Positions 867 to 19,250 of a stretch of 22,088 nt of DNA are shown here, in pieces. A program made the translations under genes and the position numbers. The notes under the pieces are model-generated. The model did no database searches and was not told the origin of the DNA. It saw nothing but the letters and a program-made list of their open reading frames with translations. Location: IMG/VR virus record IMGVR_UViG_3300006112_000842, positions 1 through 22,088 of that record. The stretch is one strand, 5' to 3'. The DNA comes from a virus. Position 1 is the first letter of the stretch, and the number at the start of each line of letters is the position of its first letter.

Positions 867-2879
867 TTACTTAGAAGTAGCACGATAAGTACCATCCCAA
901 TTGGCTGGAAGACCTTCTTCCAGCCTTTCTAACATATTCTTGTAGTATTGATTCAATTCATTGTTTTCTTCAATCAATTCTTTACAGAGTTTCTTTGCTT
1001 TAGTCCAGTCACCAGAGTAGTAACAATCTAAGTACGTTTGATGTTTATAATTAGGTTTACCTAAAGTAAATATCTTTACACCTTCTGTTTTACCCTTAAC
1101 AGCAATACAATCCAATTCAACAACAGGATATTCGTCCCTCACTTGTTCTGCGGTTAATGTACCAAGGACAATGCGAACTCCATAAGGCTTTGATTGACCT
1201 TCAAGACGAGATGCGAGATTGACTGTATCACCGAGGCAGGTATAGTCAAAACGTTGCTCAGACCCCATATTACCCACAACAACGACCCCGGTGTTAATAC
1301 CCAAACCCATACCAAAAGGTGGAATGCCTTCTTTAGTAATTTCAGTATTGAATTCATCTAAACTCTCCATCATTTGTAATGCAGTTTTAACCGCCATCTT
1401 TGCATGATTAGGTTCATCAACAGGAGCATTCCAAAATGCCATCTGTGCGTCACCAATATATTTGTCTAATGTACCATTGTTTTCTAAAATCTTTTTCGTC
1501 ATAGCAGTCATATAACGATTCATAATCTTAGTTAATCCTTGAACATCTTTTCCATAATGCTCAGAGATTGTAGTGAAACCTCTAACATCGGTGAACATAA
1601 TGGATAATTCTTTTGATTCTCCGCCGAGAGTAAGAAGTTCAGGATTTTTCTGGAGTTTTTCGACCAATGCGGGACTGAGGTATGTTCCGAATTGTTTTTT
1701 GATTTGTTGTTTTTGATACCATTCAGACACAAATTTGACAACATATCCATGTGTGAAGGTAAAAAATATGGTGAAAAGTGGGAAAGTAATATCAATGAGG
1801 TATTGGTATCTATCAAATAGTTCATGACTTCCGAAATAGGTGATTCCTGCCACAAAGAAGATTGCGATGTAACCATGTGTGTACCTTGTAAAAAATAAAG
1901 TTATTAAGCATAATGCAATTGTGTATAATAACTCTCCTCCATCAGCCCAATCAGGCCTGGAGATGTTTGTTCCTGAAATGAGAGTACTTAGTACTGCTGC
2001 TTGAAGATTATGTGGATAGACTGCACCGGTAGCTGTTGCAACGGGGTTATTAAGTCCTTTGGCTGTGAGACCGACAATGACGATGGAATTATTAAAGTTC
2101 TCTGGTAATTTTGATAAAGAATATTCTGTTGGTTTGCTTGACCAATCGACCCAAATTCTACCGACTGCATCTGTGGTGATTTTTCCAAATTTAGGAATTC
2201 TGACCGCTTGTATTCCGTATTCGCCAATTTTAACTTGGAAGCTTGGGTCGCCTGATGCAACTCTGAGGGTTTCAAGACTAATTGAAGGGTATAACAATCC
2301 TTGGGACTGTACGACCATTGGCACACGACGTGTGACGCCATCAATTTCGGGGAAAGTATTAACAATACCAATGCCAGCAGCTGTTTCATTTAAGGCCTTT
2401 ACATTTGGTTGAATTGAATTATAATCTACTCCGGCAAAACCTTCACCAATTACTGAAACACCAGGTCTAAATGGAATAACACTACCTTGTTTGTCATTAG
2501 AACCAGCTTGTGGAAGGATTACTGGATACTTCCTGAATGTGTTAGCCAAAGCATCATCCTGAAAAAACCTATCGTTATCAGGCATATAAACATTAAACAC
2601 AACAAGCCCAGCACCACGTTGATACAAATCTCGGATAATTTTGGCATATTCGCCCCTTGGAAAAGGAAATTGACCTTTTTGTTTTAAAGTTTCATCATCA
2701 ATATTAACAATCACCACATCTTTAGATTGTGTTACTGGTTTACTAGTAATTACAGTATCAAGATATCTGTATTTTACCGATTCAACAAAAGCAGGTTTAT
2801 CAACAAAAACACAAATACATAATGCCATTGTCAATAAAGCTGTCAACGGAGATAATAATAACTTTCTAATTTTTTTCAT
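867..2879 (-). CDS. Transmembrane CHASE2-domain class III adenylate cyclase
   Basis: This 670-residue receptor cyclase is predicted to make cAMP from ATP at the inner membrane. Layout: N-terminal membrane segment (about 7-27), periplasmic CHASE2 sensor domain (about 35-305, with DVVIVNIDDETL and the GIVNTFPEIDGVTRRVP block typical of CHASE2), three membrane segments (about 316-332, 336-350, 358-378), a short linker, and a cytoplasmic class III catalytic domain (about 420-605). All expected catalytic positions are visible: metal-binding Asp431 (FTDVRGF) and Asp477 (YIGD), adenine-selecting Lys473, Thr547 (YTCLGD, the usual bacterial partner), and transition-state Asn554 and Arg558 (VNLASRLE). 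The C-terminal 65 residues look helical, as in many bacterial cyclases of this class. It is the last gene of the curli block, and its start overlaps the 45-residue gene by 14 bases. Its length is full for the family and nothing suggests decay. ATP rather than GTP preference is inferred from Lys473 and Thr547. Confidence 0.93.
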   Translation of the reverse strand: MKKIRKLLLSPLTALLTMALCICVFVDKPAFVESVKYRYLDTVITSKPVTQSKDVVIVNIDDETLKQKGQFPFPRGEYAKIIRDLYQRGAGLVVFNVYMPDNDRFFQDDALANTFRKYPVILPQAGSNDKQGSVIPFRPGVSVIGEGFAGVDYNSIQPNVKALNETAAGIGIVNTFPEIDGVTRRVPMVVQSQGLLYPSISLETLRVASGDPSFQVKIGEYGIQAVRIPKFGKITTDAVGRIWVDWSSKPTEYSLSKLPENFNNSIVIVGLTAKGLNNPVATATGAVYPHNLQAAVLSTLISGTNISRPDWADGGELLYTIALCLITLFFTRYTHGYIAIFFVAGITYFGSHELFDRYQYLIDITFPLFTIFFTFTHGYVVKFVSEWYQKQQIKKQFGTYLSPALVEKLQKNPELLTLGGESKELSIMFTDVRGFTTISEHYGKDVQGLTKIMNRYMTAMTKKILENNGTLDKYIGDAQMAFWNAPVDEPNHAKMAVKTALQMMESLDEFNTEITKEGIPPFGMGLGINTGVVVVGNMGSEQRFDYTCLGDTVNLASRLEGQSKPYGVRIVLGTLTAEQVRDEYPVVELDCIAVKGKTEGVKIFTLGKPNYKHQTYLDCYYSGDWTKAKKLCKELIEENNELNQYYKNMLERLEEGLPANWDGTYRATSK
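903..925 (+). terminator. Hairpin, likely terminator for the + strand, inside the cyclase gene
   Basis: GGCTGGAAG (903-911) and CTTCCAGCC (917-925) form a perfect 9-bp stem. An extra A-T pair (912/916) can close a 3-base loop. The stem is GC-rich in an AT-rich genome, and on the + strand it is followed by TTTCT and further T-rich sequence. It lies 37 bases after the stop of the 669-866 gene but within the last codons of the convergent adenylate cyclase, because no intergenic space exists between the two stops. The T tract is short, so termination efficiency is uncertain. On the - strand no T-run follows. Confidence 0.5.
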
Positions 2880-3003
2880 ATTGTTTTCGTATATTTTTCA
2901 AATCACGCTCTAATTTTAATTCTTCTCTTTTATCGCAAACATATACTATTGCCCATACAAGGCACCAACCAAATACTCCACCAAGAAGTTGAACTATAAT
3001 CAT
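2866..3003 (-). CDS. 45-residue single-span membrane protein with charged helical tail
   Basis: This short gene fills the apparent gap between the PA14-curlin gene and the cyclase. Its ATG (3003-3001) overlaps the upstream stop as ATGA, and it ends in TAG at 2866, 14 bases inside the cyclase gene. The protein begins MIIVQLLGGVFGWCLVWAIV, a hydrophobic segment of about 21 residues. A strongly charged, Lys/Glu/Arg-rich helix with heptad-like spacing follows (residues 24-44). That is the shape of a small bitopic membrane protein with a coiled-coil tail. The double overlap argues for a real, translationally coupled gene. It has no recognisable family. It may assist the cyclase or the FecR protein, but that is a guess from position only. 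Confidence 0.75.
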   Translation of the reverse strand: MIIVQLLGGVFGWCLVWAIVYVCDKREELKLERDLKNIRKQYEKN

Positions 3004-4328
3004 TGGCGTACCGTTACTGTTCCACAAGTAGTTACACAAGTTTGAGTGATGTTATATGTTTGTCCACCAGTTTGTGTTACGTTTACTGAAGCTGGTGCAC
3101 CTGCATTATTTAGAACTATTGTGGCAGCGTTAGCACCAGAAGCACTACTGTTGTTTTGAGTAACTACTGCTGAGTTACCATTACCTGTGGTGGTTATACT
3201 AAGATAATCTTTACTTGTTCCTGTTTGACTAGTAGTAACTGTATTACTATTACCGGTCACACTAGCAAATAATTGTTTTTGTGCATTACCCGTTTGTGTG
3301 ATGCCAACAGTATTCAAATTACCAATAACTACTAAACTAGAAAATTGATTACCTGATACGCCAGTATTTTCTTGTACTACTGTAATATTATTATAACTGC
3401 CATTGATATAATCAAATTGATAGTGTCCGCCTTGGTCTAATCCTGTATAATTTCCATTAACATCTGTACCTTGATTTAAATTAAGTGTGTTGTTTCCACC
3501 AATTGCAGCTAAATCTATTAAATTATTTCCTGTTTTTGCCATAGGATCACCTTGTCGTATGGTAATATTATTACTACCACCAGTAATAGGTGCTGACTGT
3601 TGATAACCTGCTACTCCAGTAGAACTATTATAATTTGCACCATCAATTTTGTTAGCATAACCAACTTGTGTAATGTTAATAACATCACCGTTTCCTGTTT
3701 GATTAATGTAAATACTATTTGATGAAGCAGTAGTAACACCGGACATTCTAGTGACTACTGAAGAAACTTGAGCCGACTGGCCGCCGGTAATTGAACTAGT
3801 ATACTGTGGTGCCGGCATACTGGTATACAAACTTGTGGAAGGAACAACCTGCCAACTATTATTTTGATACCATTGAAAATTGACTAATGCACCGCCACCG
3901 TTTTCATAATACCAAACACTAATTGGAACAGCGCCAGCAGGTAAATTAATACTGCCTTGTCTGAAACTACCACCATCTTCTTGCCAACTATTAATTATAG
4001 TAGTATTATTAATGCTTATAACTAATCCGTCATCTGCATTACCCCCGAATGTATATGTTCCGGCAGTAGGTATATTGATGTATCCAGTAAAATGAATAAT
4101 AACTTGGTCAACACGACCTGATGTTAAAACATAACCACTACCCCAATTGTAATTAATATTACTTACTATACCTGAACTCAATGGATTTGGATATGCCAAG
4201 TTTGTATAATTTGGCGTGGCACCAGTACCAGCATAAGTTACATAATTTAATCCTGATGTTTGTGAATAAGATTTTGGTGCACAAAATCCTAATAATCCAG
4301 CAAGAAGAAATGTGAATAATATTTTCAT
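3000..4328 (-). CDS. Secreted PA14-domain protein with C-terminal curlin-like repeats
   Basis: This 442-residue protein has a Sec signal peptide (cleavage likely after about residue 22, SYS|Q). It continues with a PA14-type beta-sandwich domain (about 50-170, with GTYTFGGNADDGLVISIN at 90-107, carrying the Asp-Asp-Gly motif, and ALVNFQWY at 147-154). A tail of curlin-like repeats runs from about 205 to the end: NSIYINQTGNGDVINITQ, then several N-x-V-x-Q-T-G-N units. PA14 domains usually bind carbohydrates, sometimes through Ca2+ held by the Asp pair. Curlin repeats stack into the cross-beta core of curli. The likely role is a fibre subunit or tip adhesin that shows a glycan-binding head on an amyloid stem, exported through the CsgG encoded upstream. 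Its start shares a base with the FecR stop (TAATG). Two late Cys (in the CVTTC stretch near the C-terminus) could pair. The fusion itself is unusual. Confidence 0.85.
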   Translation of the reverse strand: MKILFTFLLAGLLGFCAPKSYSQTSGLNYVTYAGTGATPNYTNLAYPNPLSSGIVSNINYNWGSGYVLTSGRVDQVIIHFTGYINIPTAGTYTFGGNADDGLVISINNTTIINSWQEDGGSFRQGSINLPAGAVPISVWYYENGGGALVNFQWYQNNSWQVVPSTSLYTSMPAPQYTSSITGGQSAQVSSVVTRMSGVTTASSNSIYINQTGNGDVINITQVGYANKIDGANYNSSTGVAGYQQSAPITGGSNNITIRQGDPMAKTGNNLIDLAAIGGNNTLNLNQGTDVNGNYTGLDQGGHYQFDYINGSYNNITVVQENTGVSGNQFSSLVVIGNLNTVGITQTGNAQKQLFASVTGNSNTVTTSQTGTSKDYLSITTTGNGNSAVVTQNNSSASGANAATIVLNNAGAPASVNVTQTGGQTYNITQTCVTTCGTVTVRQ

Positions 4329-5464
4329 TAGTTTTGTTTGGTGGTTATGAAAGTATTACCACCGGCATTAATGCGGTTAGTAATAGTTACATTACCTGAT
4401 TGTGTTTGACTTACTGTTGCGTTTTGTGTTTTTGGTGTTGTGATACAAGAAGTATTACTACCTGCATCCGACCGACACAACTGAACTGATATAGCATCGA
4501 CTGTGGCCACTACACCTGTTTTAGAATTATAGTCTGGCAATAAACTATTCTTTTGTGGTGCCAATAAATTGCCAAATTCTTGTGATAGTTCTTCATTCAA
4601 TAATTGTAAAACATTTGCAAGAAAGTCTTGGTCTAAAAAATTACGTTGTAAAGCATTGGTATAAATTTGAGAATTTTCTGCTGCCAAGACACTACTTAAA
4701 TCCACACCTTGTAAGAAGTTTTGGCTTAACGCTGTCACCACACCTTGTTTTTCATCTTCACGTTGTTTAATAGCATTTTTAATTTCTTGTGGTGGTGCAA
4801 GAATCAACATATTATTAATACTATCTTCATTTAATTTTATTGTAACAGGTTTTGTGGGCGCCACATTTCTAGCTGTAACTTTAGTGGCTTGAAATGGTTG
4901 GTCTAATGTAACTGAACCGCCATCATTGATTACTTCAATCTTACCTGTTTTACATTCATGTTCAACATCTATTGGATTTTTTGTAGGACAACTAGGTAAT
5001 AAAATTACTGTACTGGCACCTAGTTCATCAACCGTAGCTGTGAAATCAGTACCACGGACAGCCACAGTAGCGGTAGGAGTGTTGATAGCAACTTTATTAG
5101 GATTGTCGTGAGCGATGGCGCCGCTGGCATAACGGACCGTGCCGGCCGCCATATTGAGAGCCAGTTTTCCAGCACCTTTATTTTTTGGATCATAAACGAA
5201 CTCATCAATGACCAATTTAGAATTTTCATTTACTTGTACTTTTGTATTATCGGCAAAAATGATGCCAACCTTACCTTGTTTGGTATTGATGGCATCTTCC
5301 ATTTCGACACCAGTACCTTTGGTGCCGGTTAAAGTTGTTTTAGCTCTTTGTATTGATGCTGGTGTATTCACTTGCTCCGTTATTGTCCCCACCGCTGCTA
5401 ATGTGGGGACTGAGCAAGTCAGCAAAATCAAGAAACTCAGTATTATCAGGATTCTTTTCTTCAT
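4328..5464 (-). CDS. Periplasmic FecR-domain protein with curlin-like C-terminus
   Basis: This 378-residue protein has a clear signal peptide (residues 1-23, ending TLA). A FecR domain follows at about 55-200, recognisable from AINTKQGKVGIIFADNTKVQ, the NMAAGTVRYASG segment and the NTPTATVAVRGTDF core (128-141). In bacteria FecR domains are periplasmic sensors or scaffolds, and FecR-domain proteins often lie next to CHASE2 cyclases. After a helical middle region (about 225-310), the last 35 residues hold curlin-like units (NATVSQTQSGNVTITN, then NTFITTKQ). The protein could therefore touch the curlin subunits directly, as nucleator, anchor or monitor. Cys159/Cys171 and Cys331/Cys340 are possible disulfides. 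The ATG at 5464 is the only in-frame start, since a TGA lies upstream, and it has only a weak SD; translation may be coupled to upstream reading. A function in signal passing to the cyclase is inferred. Confidence 0.87.
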   Translation of the reverse strand: MKKRILIILSFLILLTCSVPTLAAVGTITEQVNTPASIQRAKTTLTGTKGTGVEMEDAINTKQGKVGIIFADNTKVQVNENSKLVIDEFVYDPKNKGAGKLALNMAAGTVRYASGAIAHDNPNKVAINTPTATVAVRGTDFTATVDELGASTVILLPSCPTKNPIDVEHECKTGKIEVINDGGSVTLDQPFQATKVTARNVAPTKPVTIKLNEDSINNMLILAPPQEIKNAIKQREDEKQGVVTALSQNFLQGVDLSSVLAAENSQIYTNALQRNFLDQDFLANVLQLLNEELSQEFGNLLAPQKNSLLPDYNSKTGVVATVDAISVQLCRSDAGSNTSCITTPKTQNATVSQTQSGNVTITNRINAGGNTFITTKQN

Positions 5465-5506
5465 ATTCTTTAATCAGTTCTTTGAGCGTAATCATAGTTT
5501 TTCCAA

Positions 5507-6445
5507 TCAATGTGTTTGATGAATAGTCCAAGTGTTGTTACTGCCACTACTTTGGATATTTGTGGTGTTATTACCTGTTGCAGCACCTTGTGTAACATTA
5601 AATGTATTAGTACTTCCTGTCAAACCAAGAATAAATGTATTATCAGCATTACCTGTTTGTGAAACAGTTACAGAGTTACTAGAACCATTTAACGAACCAC
5701 TTGGTGTTGTAGTAGATCCACTATAACCTCCAACAGTAACAGTATTGCCATTGGTGCCACCATTTTGTGTAATACCAAATGTGTTGCTTGCACCAGTAGA
5801 ATTCAATGTAACAGAACTTGTGGTAGAAGCAGTTGTAGAATTACCTTGATTCAAAGTAAAACTATTTGAACCGCCACCATTCATATTAACAGTATCATTA
5901 TTGCCTGTACCATTAACAGTTGCAACCACACTATTGTTTGTGCCGCCAGCAGTTGTTGCAGTTAGATTGTTTCCTGTTCCTAAAATATTCACATTCAAAT
6001 TAGAGTTGTTACCTGTTTGAGTTACATTAACATTGTTGCTTGCACTTGTTCCAGAACCATCATTGTTACTATTGATGACAGCAGTAGAGTTGCTACCTGT
6101 AATAGAATAACTATAATTGTTACCATTTGAAATACCATTCGCAACAGTAGTCTGAATACCTAGTTGTAAAGTATCACCTGTACCAACTTGATTAACAGTA
6201 ACTTGATTGCTATTGCCATTGATTACTGCCGGCGTAGTTGCACTTGAACCAGTAGTCTGAACTCCTTCTACGGCATTACCTGCACCATTTTGTGTTACAC
6301 CAATAGTCGAATTGCTTCCTGACTGATTGATATAAATGGTATTATCTCCGGCTACTGCCAGTCCCGACAACAGCATTACAGCTGTCATTAGAATTGCGGA
6401 TAATTTTCTCGACAATCCGCCAGCGCCTTTTAAGCTCTTTTTCAT
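5507..6445 (-). CDS. Curlin-repeat protein, likely major fibre subunit (CsgA/CsgB-like)
   Basis: This 312-residue secreted protein has a signal peptide (residues 1-32, AVA followed by GDN). Low-complexity sequence rich in Asn, Gly, Thr, Ser and Gln follows, with repeated curlin-like units: NSTIGVTQNGAGNAVEGVQ, NSNQVTVNQVGTGD, NNVNVTQTGN, NTFGITQNGG, NSVTVSQTGN and a final NNTWTIHQ. The pattern N/S-x5-Q-x-G-x-x-N matches the strand-turn-strand unit of CsgA and CsgB. It is about twice as long as E. coli CsgA, so more or longer stacked turns are expected. It sits directly after csgG with a 9-base gap and a strong SD (AAGGA). It probably forms extracellular amyloid once exported through CsgG. Whether it acts as CsgA, CsgB or both cannot be decided from sequence. 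Asn/Thr-rich composition alone could mimic other beta-helical proteins, but the csgF-csgG context supports curlin. Confidence 0.87.
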   Translation of the reverse strand: MKKSLKGAGGLSRKLSAILMTAVMLLSGLAVAGDNTIYINQSGSNSTIGVTQNGAGNAVEGVQTTGSSATTPAVINGNSNQVTVNQVGTGDTLQLGIQTTVANGISNGNNYSYSITGSNSTAVINSNNDGSGTSASNNVNVTQTGNNSNLNVNILGTGNNLTATTAGGTNNSVVATVNGTGNNDTVNMNGGGSNSFTLNQGNSTTASTTSSVTLNSTGASNTFGITQNGGTNGNTVTVGGYSGSTTTPSGSLNGSSNSVTVSQTGNADNTFILGLTGSTNTFNVTQGAATGNNTTNIQSSGSNNTWTIHQTH

Positions 6446-6454
6446 TTCTTTTCC

Positions 6455-7426
6455 TTATTGTTTTACTACTCCCATCTTGGCTGCCACATCCGCTGGCGTG
6501 TCTTTTTTACTAGACATACCCAATGGAATACTCGGCGTTGCTGAGATGGTTGGATTAGGTTGTGCTTCCATGATTGTACCATAATCCCAAACACCTTTTC
6601 TTTGTCCTTCTTTAATTAATTCAACCACACTTGCTTCAATTGTTGTCTTTAATGCTATAGTTGTTGCCTCATTGATTGTCAAACCAGATTCAAACTGAAA
6701 GATGGCCGCAGTTGGACTTACCGACCCATTGTTGGGTGCACCAATCTGTGATATCATACTTCCTATTCCACCTGGTTCGATACTTTTAAAAATTGCTATA
6801 GCATCTGCTGTACTATAAACAATCTTTGTAACTGTTACAGTTGCCAATACTTTACCTGTATTAACTGATATTGCTCTTAAACTAACAGTAATAATATCTT
6901 TACTGTATTGTGTTGTTGGACCAATACCTAAAAAGTTATAACCTAATCCGCCTGATTCTAAACCTGTATCGTAACCAATAATACCACCTTCAAGTATAAT
7001 ACCAGCAAAAGTTAAAGGCATTAATTTTTGTGCTTGCGGACCTTCATATGCTTGTCGCATCTGTGTAATGATTAAACGTTCTTTAGTAAGAGCATCAATG
7101 TTACCACGCTCAACTACATCAAACCATCTACCATGACCAACATCTTGTAATGAACGAATCAATAAGGCATCAGCACCTTGTGTAACTGCGGTACTAAATG
7201 ATGCGATACCAGGAATAGCTTTACGTTGTCCTGTTTTATCTGTGAATTGATAAACTGCTACAACCAATCTGCCTTTAGATGGTGGTGGAATTTCATCGAA
7301 CTCTTTTTGTAATTTGTTCTCTAATACTTTTGGCTCATGTTCAACGCCAACCATTTGGCCGGCTTTTTGTGAAATAGCACAACCAGAAAGAATAAGAACT
7401 GATAGTATTAACAATAATTTTTTCAT
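6455..7426 (-). CDS. csgG: CsgG-family outer-membrane curli secretion pore lipoprotein
   Basis: This 323-residue lipoprotein has a lipobox LSGC with Cys16 as the lipid anchor. Along its length it shows the CsgG pattern: RLVVAVYQFTDKTGQ (53-67), the constriction-loop region ending FSTAVTQGADALL (77-89), WFDVVERGNIDAL (101-113), the membrane hairpin region around GGIIGYDTGLESGGLGYNF (147-165), and RKGVWDY near 276-282. CsgG forms a nine-fold outer-membrane beta-barrel pore that exports unfolded curlins. In E. coli the constriction is made by Tyr51, Asn55 and Phe56 of the mature protein. Here the aligned positions read Ile71, Ser76 and Phe77, with one extra residue in the loop. About 40 more C-terminal residues than E. 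coli CsgG are present. Its start overlaps csgF by ATGA. No csgE-like adaptor was found in the window. Confidence 0.95.
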   Translation of the reverse strand: MKKLLLILSVLILSGCAISQKAGQMVGVEHEPKVLENKLQKEFDEIPPPSKGRLVVAVYQFTDKTGQRKAIPGIASFSTAVTQGADALLIRSLQDVGHGRWFDVVERGNIDALTKERLIITQMRQAYEGPQAQKLMPLTFAGIILEGGIIGYDTGLESGGLGYNFLGIGPTTQYSKDIITVSLRAISVNTGKVLATVTVTKIVYSTADAIAIFKSIEPGGIGSMISQIGAPNNGSVSPTAAIFQFESGLTINEATTIALKTTIEASVVELIKEGQRKGVWDYGTIMEAQPNPTISATPSIPLGMSSKKDTPADVAAKMGVVKQ

Positions 7427-7890
7427 GGACCACTTCCTGTAATATTAAATGAGCCAAGTGGCACATTAATTGTGGTCATATTACCGACATTATCGGTTAC
7501 TTGTAATTGAATATTTGTACCTGTATTAGTCCAAAATATTGTGTTACCTTGAAAGTTCATTTGACCTGAAGTAGATGAACCACCAGCAAACATGGCAGTT
7601 GCCAAGTTCTGTGAAATTTGAGCGTAAATACGGGATTCTAAGTTTGTTAGAAATTGATTGATTGGTGTATTGGCGGCATCTGCTTTTGCTTGTTGCTTTG
7701 CAGCTTCCATAGCTTGAAGAATAGCCTGTGAACGAGCATATTGCTCATTTTCCAATGCCATTTGAAATGCGCCGTACCCATTACCATTTAAAGAAGGACT
7801 CTTAAACTGATAATCAGCAATAGTTGTAGCAAAAGCGGAACTACTTAATAACGCTAGAACTAGACTTTTTAGTATCTTGTTTATCTTCAT
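7423..7890 (-). CDS. csgF: CsgF-family curli assembly protein
   Basis: This 155-residue secreted protein has a signal peptide (residues 1-21, SSSAFA). The mature N-terminus TTIADYQFKSPSLNGNGYGAF aligns with the conserved F-Q-F-x-x-P-x-F-G-G-N-x-x-x-G-A segment of E. coli CsgF. That segment sits inside the CsgG barrel and forms a second constriction. The C-terminal part (NIQLQVTDNVGNMTTINVPLGS) matches the CsgF end that carries N-x-Q-L-x-V-T-D and a final Thr/Ile-rich strand. CsgF couples the pore to extracellular nucleation of the fibre. The gene start lies 50 bases inside the preceding membrane-protein gene, a long overlap, but no later Met could keep the signal peptide. It overlaps csgG by 4 bases, so the pair is probably made in step. 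Confidence 0.92.
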   Translation of the reverse strand: MKINKILKSLVLALLSSSAFATTIADYQFKSPSLNGNGYGAFQMALENEQYARSQAILQAMEAAKQQAKADAANTPINQFLTNLESRIYAQISQNLATAMFAGGSSTSGQMNFQGNTIFWTNTGTNIQLQVTDNVGNMTTINVPLGSFNITGSGP

Positions 7891-8122
7891 CCTTAATTTC
7901 CCGTAACATCAATACGATGTTTAGCTTTTGATTCAATCTAATCAAATCATTATCTAACATCCTGACACGGTCAATCAAAGCAATCAAAACATTACTTGCT
8001 TCACTTAAAACAGGCTTAATTTCTTGTGTTGCCCATTTCCACACATAAAATATAAGGTAACCCATGCCGCCTGCGGCAACAATAGGAAAACCATACTTAT
8101 TAACTAATTCTACTGGATCCAT
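7841..8122 (-). CDS. Small membrane protein, GFPI type, paralogue of the gene at 8301-8579
   Basis: This 93-residue protein has one membrane span near the N-terminus (about residues 10-30, after the motif KYGFPI). A helical, partly charged region follows (IALIDRVRMLDNDLIRLNQK) and then a polar Lys/Ser tail. It aligns without gaps to the upstream 92-residue protein: GFPI, GY, F, K, ALxxRV, D and IR occupy the same positions. A short N-terminal span behind a GFPI motif followed by a coiled-coil tail recalls BhlA/UviB-type small holin-like proteins, but this resemblance is weak. Its ATG shares a base with the stop of the 58-residue gene (TAATG), and its end overlaps csgF by 50 bases. It could help open or stabilise the membrane for the curli system, or be a lysis protein; neither is shown. 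Confidence 0.8.
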   Translation of the reverse strand: MDPVELVNKYGFPIVAAGGMGYLIFYVWKWATQEIKPVLSEASNVLIALIDRVRMLDNDLIRLNQKLNIVLMLREIKDEDKQDTKKSSSSVIK

Positions 8123-8298
8123 TATACTTCTTCTTTGTATTTTTGTTTAGCAATTTTCATAAAACTAGAAGAACACTTCATAATTTGTAATGCTAACTCA
8201 CTATCGATATCGAGCAATTGAGTGGCAGCCAAACGAGCCGCATCATCAAAATTGATGGCGATATCTTCTAAATCATCCAATTCTTTATATAATGGCAT
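8122..8298 (-). CDS. 58-residue acidic helical protein, function unknown
   Basis: This short gene lies between the two paralogous membrane-protein genes. The ATG (8298-8296) is preceded by AAAGGA at the end of the upstream gene, and the stop (8124-8122) overlaps the next start as TAATG. The product is soluble and helix-rich (YKELDDLEDIAINFDDAARL, then an ALQIMKCSSSFMKIAKQKYK helix), acidic at the N-terminal half and basic at the C-terminus, with no signal peptide. I recognise no family. Its tight packing within the operon and good SD support a real gene. Confidence 0.75.
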   Translation of the reverse strand: MPLYKELDDLEDIAINFDDAARLAATQLLDIDSELALQIMKCSSSFMKIAKQKYKEEV

Positions 8299-8300
8299 AA

Positions 8301-8579
8301 TTAGTCCTTTCGAGCATCATTTTTGCCGTCTGCACGAGCAATACGGTCGGTGTCAGGTTTAACTCCTAATGCGCTTGACATTAGAGTATCAATTCTGATA
8401 ACATCATGATTCATGGTTTTAACACGATTGTCTAAAGCAGTAATAATACCACTTAAAGACTTCACAGAAGAAGTGACTCCTGCCAGAATAAATTTCAAGG
8501 TCAGGAATACAAAATAACCGGCAGCCATCGCTGCGGCAATTGGAAAGCCAAGTTCGGCAACTAATTTAAAAAAATCCAT
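8301..8579 (-). CDS. Small membrane protein, GFPI type, first gene of the curli block
   Basis: This 92-residue protein has one N-terminal membrane span (about 10-32, beginning ELGFPIAAAMAAGY). A helical region follows (GIITALDNRVKTMNHDVIRID) and then a charged tail rich in Asp, Lys and Arg. It is a clear paralogue of the 7841-8122 product, so this pair arose by duplication with the 58-residue gene now between them. It is the first coding sequence after the TATAAATA late promoter element (leader about 60 bases). The SD is weak (ACAAAAATGG). Holin-like topology (short N-terminal tail, one span, amphipathic cytoplasmic or periplasmic helix) is visible, but function is unproven; a link to curli export rests on position. 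Confidence 0.8.
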   Translation of the reverse strand: MDFFKLVAELGFPIAAAMAAGYFVFLTLKFILAGVTSSVKSLSGIITALDNRVKTMNHDVIRIDTLMSSALGVKPDTDRIARADGKNDARKD

Positions 8580-8586
8580 TTTTGTA

Positions 8587-8615
8587 TTGACAATCGTTGG
8601 TTAATCGTATATAAT
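8587..8615 (+). promoter_or_regulatory. Consensus sigma70 promoter for the replication block
   Basis: TTGACA at 8587-8592 and TATAAT at 8610-8615 are both perfect consensus hexamers with the ideal 17-bp spacer. Transcription would start near 8622 and run right into the Sm-like gene (start 8675, SD AGGAGA), then gp43 and onward. A fully consensus promoter is what a phage needs to seize host RNA polymerase early. The leader of about 50 bases contains the late promoter element of the opposite strand. Confidence 0.85.
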
Positions 8616-8644: not shown

Positions 8645-8652
8645 TATTTATA
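8645..8652 (-). promoter_or_regulatory. T4-type late promoter element for the curli/cyclase block
   Basis: On the - strand this reads TATAAATA, the exact T4 late promoter -10 element used with the gp55 sigma factor. It lies about 65 bases upstream of the first gene of the minus-strand block and points into it. T4 late promoters need no -35. The eight bases could occur by chance in AT-rich DNA, but the position in the only intergenic gap before a ten-gene minus-strand block supports a role. Confidence 0.7.
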
Positions 8653-8987: not shown

Positions 8988-11528
8988 TTGAGCAATTTCT
9001 ATACTAATGTACAAAGTTTCGGTAACAGTATTCTCTATCGAGGCATTCGTGATGGTCAGGTAGTGAGGGAGAAAGTTGATTATTCTCCTTCATTATATCT
9101 TCCTTCTCGTAAAAACCCACAAGGTGTTTATTCTTCATTAGATGGTCTACCACTTGACCAAAAAGTCTTTGGTGACCTTCGTGCTGCTAGAGACTACATC
9201 AAGCAATTTGATGGAGTGCCAGGTTCTCCAGTAATCTATGGTCAAACACGATTTGAATATGCTTATATCGCTGAACAACATCGTGGCATGGTCGACTATG
9301 ATTATGATAAGGTTCAGATTGCCGTAATCGATATTGAGGTTGGTTCAGAGAATGGATTTCCTGACCCATACAAAGCAAACGAACCAATCACCGCTATCTG
9401 TATCAAATTTCTAAATCAAACTCCTTTTGTATTTGCCTGTGGTGAGTATGAAGTACAAGGTAATGAAGTTTATGTTCGTTGTAAAGATGAGTATTCTCTT
9501 TGCAAACAATTCATGGCATTTTGGAAAGACAAGTATCCTGATATCATTACAGGATGGAATACAAAGTTTTTTGATATACCTTATCTCATCAATCGATTTC
9601 GTAAAATTCTTGGCGAACCAGAAACTAAGAAGTTGTCACCTTGGAATTTTATTTCTGAAAGAAAGACTATAATCAATGGCCGAGAGATGATTGCTTATGG
9701 TCTACTTGGCGTTGAATCACTAGACTACATCGAACTATACAAATGGTATGCTCCTGGCGGTAAGTCACAAGAGAGTTATCGTCTTGATGCTATTGCACAG
9801 GTAGAACTTGGTGAAGGCAAAATCTCTTATGATGAATATGATAACCTACACGCATTGTATCGTTTGAACTTTCAAAAGTTTATTGAGTATAACATCAAAG
9901 ACGTTGAACTCATTATCAAATTAGAAGATAAGTTGAAACTGCTTGAACTGGCAGTAACTCTTGCTTATGACACCAAGACAAACTTTGAAGATGTCTTTGC
10001 TCAAACTCGTATGTGGGATTCTTTGACTTATGCTTACTTGTATGAGAAGAATATCATTGTACCGCCTCGTATCACTAAACACAAAGATGGTATGTTTGAA
10101 GGTGCTTATGTTAAAGAGGTTCAAGTAGGCAAGCATGATTGGGTGGCATCGTTTGACTTGAATAGTTTGTATCCTCACTTGATGATGCAATATAATATTA
10201 GTCCTGAAACTCTGATTGAACCTGAAGATTACACAGATGAAATGCGTGACATTCTGGAACAAGGCGTTGATGTTAATAAGATGTTGGCCAAGAAAGTTGA
10301 TTTAACAAGACTTAAAGGTGCAACACTAACTCCTAATGGCCAATTCTTTTCTACTGTCAAACAAGGTTTCTTACCTAAGATGATGGAAGAAATGTATACA
10401 GACCGTAAGAAGTTTAAGAACATGATGTTGGCCGCAAAGCAAGAATATGAAAATGAAACTGACGAATCTAAAAAGTATGAAATTGAAAAACGTATTGCAA
10501 AATATAATAACATCCAGTTGGCAAAGAAAGTATCACTTAATTCTGCTTACGGCGCTCTTGGCTCTCAGTATTTCAGATTTTATGATTTGCGTATGGCTCT
10601 TGGTGTTACGACCGCTGGCCAGTTAAGTATTCGTTGGATTGAAGCTAAACTTAATGAGTGGATGAACAGGATATTAAAAAGTGAGAAAGATTATGTTATT
10701 GCGTCAGATACAGATTCGATTTATCTCAACCTTGGTCCATTGGTTGATAGCATTGTTAAAACAAAGACTGAAACTTCAAAAGTTATCTCCATCATGGACC
10801 GTATATGTGAAGATAAAATTCAACCTTTTATTGACAAAAGTTATCAGGAGCTTGCAGAGTATGTTTGTGCATATGCTCAAAAGATGGAAATGAAACGTGA
10901 AGGTCTTTCTAATGTAGGAATTTGGACTGCAAAGAAAAGATATATTCTGAATGTGTATAATAATGAAGGTGTGCAATACAAAGAACCACAACTCAAAGTC
11001 ATGGGTCTTGAAATGGTTAAATCTTCAACACCATCTGTCATTCGTGTTAAGATGTATGATTTGATTAAACTTCTTGTAACCGGTACAGAAGATGATGTAC
11101 ACAAATTTATTGAGGACTTTAAAGAAGAATTCAAGGCATTACCACCAGAAGATATTTCTTCACCAAGAGGCTGTAATGGTTTGGCTAAATATTATGATTC
11201 GGTGACATTGTATAAACTTGGTACTCCAATTCATGTTAAGGGTGCCATTCTTTATAATCATTATCTCAAAGAAAAAGGACTAACCAAAAAGTATCCTTTG
11301 ATTCAAGAAGGTGAGAAGTTAAAGTATAGTTATCTTAAAACACCAAATCATTTTAAGAATACCGTTATTTCTTTTCCTGGTAGATTACCAAAAGAGTTTG
11401 GGCTTGACAATTATATCGATTATGATTTACAATTTGAAAAGTCATTTATTGAACCCATCAAAGTCATTCTTGATTGTATGGGCTGGACAACAGAGAAAAT
11501 AAGCAGTCTGGAGGATTTCTTCTCATGA
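8988..11528 (+). CDS. 43: T4-like family B DNA polymerase gp43
   Basis: This 846-residue replicative DNA polymerase has 3'-5' proofreading exonuclease. Exonuclease motifs are visible: Exo I VIDIEV (Asp115, Glu117), Exo II NTKFFDIPYL (Asp196) and Exo III YNIKDVELI (Asp305). Polymerase motif A is FDLNSLYP (389-396, Asp390), motif B is KVSLNSAYG (Lys514, Asn518, Tyr521) and motif C is ASDTDSIY (Asp574, Asp576). The C-terminus ILDCMGWTTEKISSLEDFFS resembles the T4 gp43 tail that docks on the sliding clamp gp45. The start is TTG at 8988: the resulting N-terminus SNFYTNVQSFGNSILYRGI aligns with the T4 N-terminus FYISIETVGNNIVER, so a later ATG would remove conserved sequence. It is slightly shorter than T4 gp43 (898). 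It is intact, with no intein or split as seen in some T4-like phages. Confidence 0.97.
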   Translation: MSNFYTNVQSFGNSILYRGIRDGQVVREKVDYSPSLYLPSRKNPQGVYSSLDGLPLDQKVFGDLRAARDYIKQFDGVPGSPVIYGQTRFEYAYIAEQHRGMVDYDYDKVQIAVIDIEVGSENGFPDPYKANEPITAICIKFLNQTPFVFACGEYEVQGNEVYVRCKDEYSLCKQFMAFWKDKYPDIITGWNTKFFDIPYLINRFRKILGEPETKKLSPWNFISERKTIINGREMIAYGLLGVESLDYIELYKWYAPGGKSQESYRLDAIAQVELGEGKISYDEYDNLHALYRLNFQKFIEYNIKDVELIIKLEDKLKLLELAVTLAYDTKTNFEDVFAQTRMWDSLTYAYLYEKNIIVPPRITKHKDGMFEGAYVKEVQVGKHDWVASFDLNSLYPHLMMQYNISPETLIEPEDYTDEMRDILEQGVDVNKMLAKKVDLTRLKGATLTPNGQFFSTVKQGFLPKMMEEMYTDRKKFKNMMLAAKQEYENETDESKKYEIEKRIAKYNNIQLAKKVSLNSAYGALGSQYFRFYDLRMALGVTTAGQLSIRWIEAKLNEWMNRILKSEKDYVIASDTDSIYLNLGPLVDSIVKTKTETSKVISIMDRICEDKIQPFIDKSYQELAEYVCAYAQKMEMKREGLSNVGIWTAKKRYILNVYNNEGVQYKEPQLKVMGLEMVKSSTPSVIRVKMYDLIKLLVTGTEDDVHKFIEDFKEEFKALPPEDISSPRGCNGLAKYYDSVTLYKLGTPIHVKGAILYNHYLKEKGLTKKYPLIQEGEKLKYSYLKTPNHFKNTVISFPGRLPKEFGLDNYIDYDLQFEKSFIEPIKVILDCMGWTTEKISSLEDFFS

Positions 11529-12445
11529 TTTACTTAACATTTTTATGTGCCTTGGCATTATCTGGTATTGCTGCCTACTATTCGGTAATCGGATTGGCAG
11601 CAATCTTTACTGGTGCGTTTTGGCCAATCGTCTTTATGGGCGGAGTTCTTGAAGCCAGTAAACTGGTTACTGCATCATGGTTATATCGTAATTGGAAGAC
11701 CTGCCCACTTTTATTGAAAACATACTTGACAACCGCAGTGATTGTTTTGATGATGATTACTAGTATGGGTATTTTTGGTTTCTTGGCCAAAGCACATATT
11801 GATTCCACACTTGATGCGGGCGCCAATAATGTAGAAGTCAAAACATTAAATCAACAAGAGAAAATTACCAAAGATAGATTAGATTATTTGTTGGCACGAG
11901 CCAAAGATCCATCAACGGCAAACAATCGACTTGATAAACAAATTCAAGATACTCAAAAAGAATTAACCGAAATCAGTAAGAAAAAATTACCATTATTAAA
12001 AGAATCTAATAAACTTGTGGCAGAAGTAGGTCCTATTAAGTATGTTGGTGATTTGGTATATGGTAGTGATGACGATAATGCTTTAGACAAAGCAGTTCGT
12101 TTGGTAATCATGTTGATTATGGTTGTATTTGACCCGCTAGCTGTGTTATTATTGATAGCAGCAAATATGTCATTGAAGCCACCACCTGGAAAACCCATCG
12201 TAAAAGATGGTGAAATTACTGGTTTAACGGCAAGTGACATACCAGTATTTACTGAAACTAAACCTGACGATAAAATTGAAGTTGAAAAAGAAAACATTGC
12301 CGAGTTTGAAAAGGCACAGCCAATTGTATTAGATGAAGCATCAGGTGAAACTATGCCTCCATTATCAGCAGGAGTTAGAACTAAAGTCTTAGAACCTAAG
12401 TATGATTACAATGCTGAATTTGCATTTCGTGAAAAAGGAAAATAA
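11525..12445 (+). CDS. Four-span membrane protein with central coiled coil, function unknown
   Basis: This 306-residue protein has three membrane segments near the N-terminus (about 2-24, 30-50, 67-88), a charged coiled-coil region (about 105-165) and a fourth span (about 191-213, LVIMLIMVVFDPLAVLLLIA). A soluble acidic, proline-containing tail follows. The start is taken at ATG 11525 because it overlaps the gp43 stop as ATGA and has GGAGG upstream (11511-11515); an earlier in-frame start at 11474 would lie deep in gp43. Conserved-looking blocks are GGVLEASKLVTASWLYRNWK and the FDPLAVLL span. Sitting between gp43 and uvsX, it may tether replication or recombination to the inner membrane, but I know of no proven function. 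Confidence 0.85.
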   Translation: MIYLTFLCALALSGIAAYYSVIGLAAIFTGAFWPIVFMGGVLEASKLVTASWLYRNWKTCPLLLKTYLTTAVIVLMMITSMGIFGFLAKAHIDSTLDAGANNVEVKTLNQQEKITKDRLDYLLARAKDPSTANNRLDKQIQDTQKELTEISKKKLPLLKESNKLVAEVGPIKYVGDLVYGSDDDNALDKAVRLVIMLIMVVFDPLAVLLLIAANMSLKPPPGKPIVKDGEITGLTASDIPVFTETKPDDKIEVEKENIAEFEKAQPIVLDEASGETMPPLSAGVRTKVLEPKYDYNAEFAFREKGK

Positions 12446-13525
12446 ATGAGTATACTTGACAAAATTAAAAAGAATAGTAGTATTAAAGATTCGGCTATTC
12501 TATCTAAATCAAAATTCTTTACAAACAAAGATATGATTCCAACCTCGGTGCCCATTATCAATGTGGCACTTTCTGGTAAATTAGATGGCGGTTTAACACC
12601 AGGTCTTACAATGTGGGCAGGCCCATCAAAACACTTTAAGACTGCTTTCTCACTTTTGATGGCAAAATCTTACTTGGACAAATACGAAGATGCTGCTTTA
12701 TTATTTTATGATAGCGAGTTTGGTACTCCTCAGTCTTATTTTGATTCCTTTGGAATCGATACTAATCGTGTTCTGCACACTCCTCTTACTGATATTGAGC
12801 AATTAAAGTTTGATGTGATGCAACAACTCACCAATCTTGAACGTGGTGAACATTTGATTATTGTAATTGATTCAATTGGTAATTTAGCATCAAAAAAAGA
12901 AGTCGATGATGCACTTGATGGCAAATCTGTTGCCGATATGTCAAGAGCAAAACAAGTTAAATCATTATTCCGAATGATTACACCACACTTATCACTTAAA
13001 GATATTCCAATGATTGTTGTCAATCATACTTACAAAGAAATCGGAATGTTCCCTAAAGATATCGTTGGTGGTGGTACAGGTTCATATTATTCTGCCGATA
13101 ATATTTTTATTATTGGTCGTCAACAAGAGAAAGAAGGTACAGAAATTGTTGGATATAATTTTATCATTAATGTCGAAAAGTCTCGATATGTTAAAGAGAA
13201 GTCTAAGATTCCGGTCACCGTTCGTCATGATGGTGGTATTAGCCGTTGGAGTGGGTTACTTGACATCGCTCTTGATTCAGGTCATGTCATCAAACCATCC
13301 AACGGTTGGTACTCTAAGGTGGATACGGAATCTGGCGTTATAGAAGATAAGAAATACCGTATCAAAGAAACTGATACATCAGAATTCTGGTTACCAATTC
13401 TTAAACAGAAATCTTTCCAACAATATGTACAAGACAAATACCAAATTGCAACAGGTGGTATTATCAAAGAAGAAGTAGAACAAGCATTTGAAGTGGAGAC
13501 TACTAACGGAGTAGAAGATGATTGA
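12446..13525 (+). CDS. uvsX: UvsX, RecA-like strand-exchange recombinase
   Basis: This 359-residue T4-type RecA homologue forms a filament on single-stranded DNA and drives recombination-dependent replication and repair. Walker A is GPSKHFKT (59-66) and the catalytic glutamate region is FYDSEFG (Glu91). Walker B is LIIVIDSIGNL with Asp142, directly followed by ASKKEVDDAL as in T4. DMSRAKQVKSLFR, the VNHTY segment and GGGTGSYYSAD are L1/L2-region matches, and VEKSRYVKEKSKIP is near-identical to T4 UvsX. The ATG follows directly on the previous stop; a GGAA-type SD lies at 12437-12440. Length is close to T4 UvsX (391), with a shorter acidic C-terminal tail. Confidence 0.97.
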   Translation: MSILDKIKKNSSIKDSAILSKSKFFTNKDMIPTSVPIINVALSGKLDGGLTPGLTMWAGPSKHFKTAFSLLMAKSYLDKYEDAALLFYDSEFGTPQSYFDSFGIDTNRVLHTPLTDIEQLKFDVMQQLTNLERGEHLIIVIDSIGNLASKKEVDDALDGKSVADMSRAKQVKSLFRMITPHLSLKDIPMIVVNHTYKEIGMFPKDIVGGGTGSYYSADNIFIIGRQQEKEGTEIVGYNFIINVEKSRYVKEKSKIPVTVRHDGGISRWSGLLDIALDSGHVIKPSNGWYSKVDTESGVIEDKKYRIKETDTSEFWLPILKQKSFQQYVQDKYQIATGGIIKEEVEQAFEVETTNGVEDD

Positions 13526-13838
13526 AGGCGTTGATTACTGTTATATTTACCCAAAAGAAGATGCCGCTTCGGTACACATTAAATTTTTAGAAGGTCCGTA
13601 CAAAGGCACTCTTTACAAATATGGTAGAGTTAAGTTTGAAGAAAAAGGTGATGAGGTCCATTTACTTTTTGCTTACGATGTGTTAGAATCACCAATCGAT
13701 AAGCCAAAGAAGTTAGAAAAGGATGAAACCTTTAAGAATTACATTGGTGATTTATTGGTAGAAATTATGAGTAGTAATATTGAACAGGAAGTATACGATG
13801 AAGCTGGAACAAGCGATATTAAAGAATCTGATTTATAA
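13518..13838 (+). CDS. Small acidic protein between uvsX and gene 41, unknown function
   Basis: This 106-residue soluble protein begins 8 bases before the uvsX stop and extends 41 bases into gene 41. The N-terminal half looks like a small beta-barrel (VHIKFLEGPYKGTLYKYGRVKFEE, several alternating strands, reminiscent of KOW/SH3-like folds). The C-terminal half is acidic and helical. No family is recognised with confidence. Its fixed position between the recombinase and the replicative helicase suggests a helper in replication, perhaps helicase or recombinase loading, but nothing in the sequence proves it. Confidence 0.8.
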   Translation: MIEGVDYCYIYPKEDAASVHIKFLEGPYKGTLYKYGRVKFEEKGDEVHLLFAYDVLESPIDKPKKLEKDETFKNYIGDLLVEIMSSNIEQEVYDEAGTSDIKESDL

Positions 13839-15183
13839 TGAAGATTATTTAAGAAAAGTATTACCGTTTTTAAAATCTGATTATTTCTCCGACAGAACGG
13901 AGAGGACATTATTCAATGAAATTACATCATTCACGGAAACTTACAATTCTCCACCATCGGTTGAGGCAATTAGTATTGCCGTCAAAGAAAAGAGTACTCT
14001 TACATCTGACGAAGTTGAGGGATGCGAAACTTATCTCAAAGAAATTGAGGCAAATAGCAAAGCAGAAACCGAAGTTCAATGGCTTGTTGACAAAACCGAA
14101 AAGTTCTGCCAAGAGAAGGCGATTTATAATGGTGTACTACGGGCTATTTCAATTCTCGATGGCAAAGATAAAAATCAGGACAAAGGTGCGATTCCCTCTA
14201 TATTATCGGACGCCTTGGCCGTTTCATTCGATACCACAGTAGGTCACGATTATCTCGAAAACTCCGATGAACGATATGAGTTCTATCATCGCAAAGAAGA
14301 AAGAATCCCCTTTGATTTGGAATATTTTAATAAAATCACTAAAGGTGGTTTACCTGCTAAGACTCTTAATATTGCTCTTGCTGGCACCGGTGTTGGGAAG
14401 TCTTTGTTCATGTGCCATGTTGCTTCTAGCTGTATGGTTCTTGGTAAAAACGTATTGTATATCACTTTGGAAATGGCTGAAGAAAAGATTGCTGAAAGAA
14501 TAGATGCAAATCTTTTGAATGTATCTTTGGATGATTTGATGGATTTACCAAAAGATATGTATGATAAGAAAGTTGCTCGGGTTAAAGAAAAGACAACAGG
14601 CAAACTTATCATCAAAGAATACCCAACCGCATCGGCTTCTGTAACTCATTTTAGGACATTATTAAATGAACTTAATCTTAAACGCAGTTTTGTACCTGAT
14701 ATCATCTTTGTTGATTATCTTAACATCTGTTGTTCTAGCCGTATCAAGGCTGGTGCAAATATTAATTCCTACACATATGTTAAATCGATTGCTGAAGAAC
14801 TTAGAGGACTGGCAGTCGAGTATAACGTACCAATTGTTTCCGCAACTCAAACGACACGAAGCGGATTCACATCATCCGATCCAGGACTAGAAGATACTTC
14901 TGAATCTTTTGGACTTCCTGCTACTGCCGATTTGATGTTTGCTTTGATTTCTTCCGAAGAATTAGAAGAACTCGGACAGATTATGGTAAAGCAATTGAAG
15001 AATCGATACAATGATCCATCTTATTACAAACGATTTGCAATTGGTGTCGATAGATCCAAAATGAAATTGTATGATGTGGAACAATCTGCACAACAAGGTA
15101 TTGCTGATGCCGGTACTGCACCTGTTGGCGCATTTAACAAAATTCAACCACAGAAAAAATCATTTGACGGATTTAAAGTATGA
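13798..15183 (+). CDS. 41: gp41, DnaB-like replicative helicase
   Basis: This 461-residue hexameric 5'-3' helicase unwinds the fork and works with a primase (gp61 in T4). Its N-terminal helical domain aligns with T4 gp41 (ILKNLIYNEDYLRKVLPFLK). The RecA-like domain has Walker A AGTGVGKS (195-202), ITLEMAEE (catalytic Glu225), Walker B DIIFVDYLN (Asp306), SYTYVKSIAEELRGLA and SATQTTRSG, and a C-terminal KNRYNDPS block, all as in T4. The start is placed at ATG 13798 with SD AGGAAG at 13786-13791. A TTG at 13780 in frame would add six residues but has a poorer site. It overlaps the preceding small gene by 41 bases and the next gene by ATGA. Confidence 0.97.
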   Translation: MKLEQAILKNLIYNEDYLRKVLPFLKSDYFSDRTERTLFNEITSFTETYNSPPSVEAISIAVKEKSTLTSDEVEGCETYLKEIEANSKAETEVQWLVDKTEKFCQEKAIYNGVLRAISILDGKDKNQDKGAIPSILSDALAVSFDTTVGHDYLENSDERYEFYHRKEERIPFDLEYFNKITKGGLPAKTLNIALAGTGVGKSLFMCHVASSCMVLGKNVLYITLEMAEEKIAERIDANLLNVSLDDLMDLPKDMYDKKVARVKEKTTGKLIIKEYPTASASVTHFRTLLNELNLKRSFVPDIIFVDYLNICCSSRIKAGANINSYTYVKSIAEELRGLAVEYNVPIVSATQTTRSGFTSSDPGLEDTSESFGLPATADLMFALISSEELEELGQIMVKQLKNRYNDPSYYKRFAIGVDRSKMKLYDVEQSAQQGIADAGTAPVGAFNKIQPQKKSFDGFKV

Positions 15184-16289
15184 TATTAACTAGAGAACAA
15201 GCACTACATTGTTCCAAAGTATTCCACGATTACTTTAGTAATATTGGAAGTACCGAAGAATATATGCGTGATGAGAAGATAAAAAACCTTGAAGATTTAC
15301 CTTCTTCATTGTTTCCACCAGAAGATGATTTGTTTTCTGATTTCTCGGTACATCCAAAAGATATGGATATTGAAGTTTGTGAAATACCAAATGCTCAGTT
15401 TGAAACATTGCTTGCCATTACCAGTTCCCACATCAATAAGGCACCAGTTGGTAAGAATATACAATTGGCTGTCAAAGAGAAGAACTCAGGAAAGATTCTA
15501 GGTTTCATTCGGTTAGGTTCACCAGTAATCTATATGAAACCTCGAAATGAACTCTTAGGACAGGTCTGGATTCAGCAGGAGGATACTGCCAAACGATTCA
15601 ATACTGCTTGTGTTATGGGTTTTGTAATTGTACCAAGTCAACCATTCGGTTTTAATTATCTAGGTGGTAAACTTCTATCTGCCATTTGTACCAGTCATAC
15701 TGTAAGAGAAATGTGCAATAAGAAATATGGTATGAATGTATGTCTATTTGAAACTACCAGTCTATACGGAAGTACCAAGTCAGTATCACAGTATGATGGC
15801 ATTAAACCATATATTCGTTTTCGTGGCTTGACTGAATCGGATATTGTGCCAATGATGCACGGTGGACGATATCATGATTTGAAAAATTATGTGGAGAATA
15901 TTACTGGAGATTTGTTGGCAGGTGATACATCAACTACCAGTAGAAAACTAAGAACTTTTACTAAAATTATTGCTTTAACTAAAGCAGCACTTAAAGGTAC
16001 ACCTGAAGGGGAGGCATTCTCTTTAACGATTGAGAACGCCAAAAAGTTGACAGAAAAGAAAAGATATTATACTTCAGATTATGGATTTAAGAATTCCGTT
16101 GATTACATGAATTGCAAAACCGATACTTTGATTCCAGGTGAAAACTATCAAAAACATGAATTAAACAACATCGTTGAGTGGTGGAAGCAGAAGGCAACAA
16201 ATCGATATGAAACACTTAAAGCAGAAGGTCGCCTCCGTACAACAGTTGAAGTCTGGACTAATGATACAAACATTGACATCATCCGGTAG
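15180..16289 (+). CDS. DruA/DUF4338-like protein (tentative)
   Basis: This 369-residue soluble protein overlaps gp41 by ATGA. The middle section recalls the DUF4338 domain named after DruA of the Druantia defence system: KILGFIRLGSPVIYMKPRNE (105-124; family pattern LVGF-x-x-F-G-S-P-x-x-x-x-x-x-R-D), then RFN at 139-141 and FVIVPSQP, then NYLGGKLLSAI (159-169; the nLas-iLs helix), then KYGMNVCLFETTSLYGSTK (182-200; the 'YG-P-LLETFVD-x-x-x-G-T' block). The C-terminal part is basic and helical. DruA-type proteins are thought to act on DNA, though their biochemistry is not something I can confirm. In a phage replication operon it is more likely a DNA-metabolism protein than a defence protein. 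The match is by eye, so certainty is limited. Confidence 0.8.
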   Translation: MILTREQALHCSKVFHDYFSNIGSTEEYMRDEKIKNLEDLPSSLFPPEDDLFSDFSVHPKDMDIEVCEIPNAQFETLLAITSSHINKAPVGKNIQLAVKEKNSGKILGFIRLGSPVIYMKPRNELLGQVWIQQEDTAKRFNTACVMGFVIVPSQPFGFNYLGGKLLSAICTSHTVREMCNKKYGMNVCLFETTSLYGSTKSVSQYDGIKPYIRFRGLTESDIVPMMHGGRYHDLKNYVENITGDLLAGDTSTTSRKLRTFTKIIALTKAALKGTPEGEAFSLTIENAKKLTEKKRYYTSDYGFKNSVDYMNCKTDTLIPGENYQKHELNNIVEWWKQKATNRYETLKAEGRLRTTVEVWTNDTNIDIIR

Positions 16290-19249: not shown

Positions 19250-19250
19250 T

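Follow-up and report, generated by a model that had tools for sequence, protein, structure and literature searches.

A phage-borne curli-type secretion operon predicted to build lectin-headed fibres late in infection

The 22,088-nucleotide stretch of viral DNA analysed here over its whole length (IMG/VR record IMGVR_UViG_3300006112_000842, positions 1 to 22,088; hereafter the window) belongs to a T4-like phage and carries a complete curli, or type VIII, secretion cassette in which CsgG, CsgF and curlin-repeat substrates are all present. The cassette is an operon-like run of eight genes on the minus strand (867-8579) that lies in the left third of the window. Adjacent frames share nucleotides or are separated by short distances, apart from two larger gaps, one of about 120 bp ahead of the cyclase gene and one of about 180 bp between two genes for small membrane proteins. 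On balance, the operon is probably expressed late in infection and would serve to display lectin-headed fibres which tether cells or particles near the burst. A first-pass annotation made from the sequence had proposed that the phage carries genes for both curli secretion and curli fibres, and every computational test run supports this proposal; the five genes it named are confirmed in their coordinates, order and minus-strand orientation, and Pfam supports each of them. The cassette extends beyond these five genes, as the annotation had missed the CHASE2-cyclase gene (867-2879) and the genes of the two small proteins (7841-8122 and 8301-8579).

The secretion core consists of CsgG (6455-7426), an outer-membrane pore lipoprotein with the lipobox LSGC, and CsgF (7423-7890), a pore-associated assembly factor with a signal peptide. 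Both had been recognised from family motifs, and profile searches uphold the assignment: CsgG matches PF03783 far over its cut-off (2.2e-39) and CsgF matches PF10614 (4.3e-15, 56.5 bits against a cut-off of 25.8). The curated Pfam cut-offs are likewise exceeded by the FecR, PA14, CHASE2 and cyclase domains of the cassette. The profile of the CsgG family aligns with the structure of E. coli CsgG (3x2r) at 2.7e-71 over 267 positions, which is nearly the whole chain, and CsgF homologues in the phages HTVC008M and Melnitz show 36-40% identity. Family scans of the cassette proteins found no CsgE or CsgC, neither of which is required for membership of the type VIII systems, and CsgD was not found in the cassette either.

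Two proteins of the cassette carry curlin repeats. Curlin-1 (5507-6445, 312 residues) is the candidate major fibre subunit and matches Curlin_rpt (PF07012) in four stretches with an E-value of 9e-4 and a score of 19.6 bits, just below the cut-off of 20.7. The profile of its family matches solved curli chains (8c50, 4e-16; E. coli curli 8enq, 0.0024), and that of curlin-2 (3000-4328, 442 residues) matches 8c50 at 3e-9. Motifs of the form N-x-h-x-h-x-Q occur eight times in curlin-1 and seven times in curlin-2 against means of 0.37 and 0.62 in shuffled sequences, and none of 2000 shuffles reached the observed counts. The curlin assignment is firm because it is supported by both the shuffling tests and the matches to solved curli chains, so that the repeats first noticed by eye are genuine even with the curlin-1 Pfam score just short of its threshold.

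A survey of gene neighbourhoods, which the first-pass annotation had called for, showed that the order of the cassette recurs in viral loci. One scan of viral sequences yielded 57 loci and a second one 80, the latter taken from at least 583 viral contigs that match one CsgG profile, a number which implies that viral curli cassettes are very common. Conservation was counted in 70 distinct viral cassettes with sufficient flanking sequence. CsgF, curlin-1 and the FecR-domain protein are present in 70 of 70, the cyclase in 67, curlin-2 in 65 and the membrane-protein family in 58, and this joint retention argues that selection maintains the whole fibre set rather than just the pore. Of the 80 loci from genomes, most of them alphaproteobacterial, nearly all consist of csgF-csgG-curlins with no FecR or cyclase within 10 kb. 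The exceptions are a metagenome-assembled genome (MAG) of Hyphomonas (locus L061), and several viral-looking MAG contigs (L080, L104, L138 and the short L106). In the CsgG tree the viral sequences split from the bacterial ones with 100/100 support; the window CsgG falls in the viral clade, in a subclade separate from HTVC008M, and the bacterial L061 is nested among the viral sequences. The L061 cassette (9456-15479, csgF-csgG-curlin-fecR-cyclase) lies on a 705 kb contig with bacterial neighbours, and either virus-to-bacterium transfer or a surviving donor lineage is a possible origin of it. A search with the L061 FecR among 385 alphaproteobacteria gave no second comparable full-length match (E-value 2.5e-223 for the top match and 3.5e-19 for the next), and no csgG was present in the short flanks. 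A separate CsgG is encoded by OR851715, an unannotated record of 1499 bp labelled as a Salmonella phage, which is probably a host fragment rather than a phage cassette.

Curlin-2 is a modular protein in which a constant curlin-type C-terminus is combined with a variable head, which may be absent, of the PA14/GLEYA type, of the F5/8 type C type or unassigned. In the window protein the head is a lectin-type PA14 domain (PF07691, 1.7e-11) with an invariant DDG, followed by curlin repeats and a conserved C-terminal unit with an invariant cysteine pair (C431 and C435). The PA14-curlin fusion described in the first-pass annotation is thus upheld on both of its halves. The AlphaFold2 model of curlin-2 (mean predicted local distance difference test, pLDDT, 71), computed solely from sequences of the window and of related loci, retrieves sugar-bound PA14 domains and yeast flocculins in Foldseek. 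Among 78 distinct curlin-2 proteins compared for length, approximately 33 are short, at 118-346 residues, and for the most part lack a head, and the other 45 (370-852 residues) mostly have a head of about 130-600 residues. Head domains were searched for in 55 of these proteins, with matches to PA14 in eight, F5/8 type C in five and GLEYA in three. The PA14 heads do not cluster on the CsgG tree and require seven changes for seven PA14-bearing sequences. From these features we infer that curlin-2 is a subunit of the fibre that bears a lectin and whose head can be exchanged. Neither "PA14" nor "lectin" is used in the earlier description of such modules (Wittmers 2022; PMC9599517).

The FecR-domain protein (4328-5464) is predicted to be exported, its N-terminus being a signal peptide as judged from the sequence, and consists of the FecR domain, a helical linker and a C-terminal ladder of beta-strands that ends in ITTKQN. 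PF04773 (8.5e-11) is the sole Pfam family matched. No anti-sigma domain is found in the protein, nor does any gene of the cassette encode a sigma factor, so that the features of a FecR sigma regulator are lacking here, and the analysis speaks against a role as iron regulator. In its AlphaFold2 model (mean pLDDT 77) the helical linker is poorly predicted, and six strands at residues 318-376 reach pLDDT values of 83-92. Foldseek matches FecR/PupR signalling domains as well as the cell-surface anchoring domain of an RTX adhesin (5ix9; 62 residues, template modelling score 0.72 of the target, E-value 0.016); by sequence profile the match to 5ix9 is marginal (E-value 0.38). The C-terminus of the viral FecR proteins is reminiscent of a curlin subunit, as h-x-h-x-Q followed by zero to three residues ends 61 of 86 distinct cases, which are homologous and do not count as independent events, compared with 33 of 1301 background open reading frames, 0 of 112 CsgG proteins and 0 of 81 cyclases. 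Homology between this tail and curlin repeats has been considered and rejected (HHalign probability below 2%), which leaves the terminal motif and the modelled strands. The FecR protein with a curlin-like tail originally proposed is thus upheld in part, the likeness of the tail being one of predicted strands and terminal motif. These features suggest an exported anchor or sensor that has a curlin-like end.

The last gene of the cassette (867-2879) encodes a 670-residue class III adenylate cyclase with a CHASE2 sensor, identified by Pfam (CHASE2, 3.1e-39; Guanylate_cyc, 7.2e-23), by the adenylate cyclase structure 6fht (5e-35) and by PHROG 35576; the catalytic-type positions D, K, D, N and R are present. 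Adjacency of FecR and CHASE2 is not a general bacterial rule, as FecR lies within about 1.5 kb in just three of 30 CHASE2 loci; further bacterial neighbours of this kind appear in the coordinate lists, for example G110:C28, G157:C1 and G040:C13. A stand-alone protein of about 100-130 residues that is equivalent to the C-terminal region of the CHASE2-cyclase (about positions 565-671 of the profile) precedes csgF in 18 of the 70 cassettes; carriers include L007, L010 (9089-9439), L034, L145 and other viral loci.

The first two genes of the cassette encode paralogous small membrane proteins of 92 (8301-8579; PHROG 18771, 1.3e-36) and 93 residues (7841-8122; PHROG 18771), the latter at the position upstream of csgF that the literature assigns to a histidine kinase. 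The product of 8301-8579 has no Pfam hit and neither protein matches a kinase family. A kinase identity was rejected on these grounds and because the candidate histidine is not invariant. What occupies the published kinase position is thus a pair of small membrane proteins that lack kinase domains. Proteins of this kind are found there in HTVC008M and Melnitz too, and it is the published label that is questioned, not the membership of the cassette in the pelagiphage-type module. A short minus-strand reading frame of about 58 residues, read by eye, appears between the two genes (8122-8300).

The cassette is probably expressed late, as suggested by a T4-type late promoter motif, TATAAATA, on the minus strand (8645-8652), which starts 73 nucleotides upstream of the first cassette gene. 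It is the only exact match in the window, where 2.7 would be expected by chance in a sequence of this size, and the evidence for a promoter thus rests on its position and recurrence. In cassettes that begin with the membrane-protein gene, NATAAATA lies within 120 nucleotides upstream in 26 of 35 distinct related cassettes, which are not independent of one another, against 51 of 423 other genes (12%). A perfect sigma-70-type site in the opposite orientation (8587-8615) serves the side of the replication genes, and this arrangement suggests that a single divergent spacer would direct late transcription of the cassette and early transcription of the replication genes. Marine homologues are expressed in metatranscriptomes from the sea (Wittmers 2022; PMC9599517).

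Taken together, these features are best accommodated by a phage curli operon whose fibres act as tethers. Late in infection the Sec system of the host would export both curlins, the second with its head, together with the FecR-domain protein. The curlin chains would then leave through the CsgG-CsgF pore in the outer membrane and assemble into cross-beta fibres at the surface of the infected cell. The PA14 head would turn the fibre into a sugar-binding adhesin, with the constant C-terminus of curlin-2 as the fibre-joining part and the head as the part exchanged between phages. The folded domain of FecR would stay in the periplasm and its strand-rich tail would end like a curlin subunit, most likely to anchor or plug the junction of CsgG and fibre in place of the missing CsgE, to report to the cyclase, or both. 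The periplasmic CHASE2 domain may receive this report, upon which the cyclase would make cyclic AMP. Most likely, the fibres would retain nearby cells, or particles rich in glycans, around the site of the impending burst, and the progeny would encounter hosts earlier. Lectin-type heads with a faster rate of change than the pore, combined with the late motif and the exported FecR, predict fibres that are late, glycan-binding and anchored at CsgG. Should this hold, phages would be reshaping the surface of a cell about to die so as to influence where their progeny land. A more specific version is offered tentatively: the fibres may form an exchangeable glycan-binding net displayed late by the dying cell, with a constant core for export and fibre formation, curlin-2 heads swapped like the tips of tail fibres, and FecR as a pore-plugging anchor that reports assembly to the CHASE2-cyclase.

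Several observations weigh against the tethering fibre. Curlin-1 falls just under the Pfam cut-off and its repeats are fewer and less regular than those of bacterial curlins, and the FecR tail is not a curlin by profile comparison. The late promoter motif is subject to the chance expectation and the relatedness of the cassettes given above. Fibres, export and expression in the window phage are all predictions from the sequence. Cultures infected with Melnitz, a phage that has this cassette but no head on its curlin-2, did not clump (Buchholz 2022; PMC9004378).

The main rival to the tethering purpose is superinfection blocking, in which the fibres would mainly coat the surface and keep competing phages off the infected cell, as has been proposed for marine homologues (Wittmers 2022; PMC9599517). 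It needs the same parts, and a glycosyltransferase-like gene lies within the window. Exclusion usually acts early, and the late promoter motif would be poor timing for it; the variable lectin-type heads also suit binding partners better than a simple shield. This purpose is considered unlikely.

A less credible alternative is that CsgG-CsgF is a lysis-timing pore, either pinholin-like or a gated secretin, that makes no fibres. This was argued for Melnitz, in which csgA and csgB were deemed missing (Buchholz 2022; PMC9004378), and the small membrane proteins near csgF do show very weak holin-like matches (E-values of 0.02-0.3). The premise fails, however, as two curlin-repeat proteins are annotated in the Melnitz record (L060, MZ577097), contrary to that paper, and curlin-1 is present in all 70 viral cassettes. 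CsgG is moreover an outer-membrane pore and not an inner-membrane holin, and the cassette as a whole speaks against a lysis role, which appears improbable. Still more improbable is a nutrient pore, suggested in PMC7029224 and PMC9599517, in which an open CsgG without CsgE would admit large molecules while FecR and the cyclase regulate metabolism. It would accord with the failure to find CsgE in the cassette and with the FecR-CHASE2 cyclase neighbours in bacteria without csg genes, but does not account for CsgF, for heads of the lectin type or for the strict retention of the curlins. Hardly tenable is the reading of the repeat proteins as tail fibres of the usual kind, or as adhesins of the virion, with beta-helices: virions could in principle make use of the modelled beta-solenoid repeats and of heads of the PA14 type, but the proteins have signal peptides, adjoin a curli pore, match the profiles of curlin and not tail-fibre families, and recur beside csgG in 70 of 70 loci.

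The window cassette is a well-supported further example of phage curli cassettes that are already published, and the earlier impression that full cassettes with their substrates were less described is out of date. The genes csgF and csgG were reported in pelagimyophages with a proposed role in "sibling capture" (Zaragoza-Solas 2020; PMC7029224), and a CsgF-CsgG-CsgA/B-FecR-CsgA/B-cyclase module was described in podo- and myoviruses including pelagiphages, along with the absence of CsgE and CsgC from alphaproteobacterial and pelagiphage systems (Wittmers 2022; PMC9599517). The window has this pelagiphage-type order, CsgF-CsgG-curlin-FecR-curlin-cyclase, and shares gene order, FecR, the second curlin with its PA14 head and the cyclase with the type VIII module of HTVC008M, whose CsgG is just 37% identical. 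Melnitz shares the order as well, but its curlin-2 is headless. Bacterial curli systems (E. coli csg; alphaproteobacterial csgF-csgG-curlins) have CsgG, CsgF and curlin-repeat substrates like the window, to which the phage operon adds FecR and the CHASE2-cyclase; regular repeats are less numerous in the phage curlins. RTX adhesins such as MpAFP combine a sugar-binding PA14 domain with an N-terminal anchoring domain and resemble the window PA14 and FecR domains at the level of the fold. An RTX adhesin is a single giant protein secreted by a type I system, unlike the separate proteins and curli pore of the window, and the likeness is one of analogy and not of membership. The available portions of PMC9599517 and PMC7029224 make no mention of a lectin-type head, a late promoter motif or the FecR architecture; as far as these sources show, the modular curlin-2, the recurrent late motif, the exported FecR with a curlin-like end and the small membrane proteins at the kinase position are undescribed.

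Divergently from the cassette, the plus strand encodes T4-like replication genes, namely PolB, UvsX and a DnaB-type helicase. PolB is about 50% identical to gp43 of cyanophages, which is too low for a host to be named from it; the IMG sample numbers may point to a freshwater origin. Amid these replication genes, 15180-16289 matches Druantia DruA (Pfam, 8.5e-9). Flanking them on the same strand are glycosyltransferase-, methyltransferase- and epimerase-like frames (17706-22084 and 1-657), of which two were scanned and one (17706-18428) matched Glycos_transf_2.

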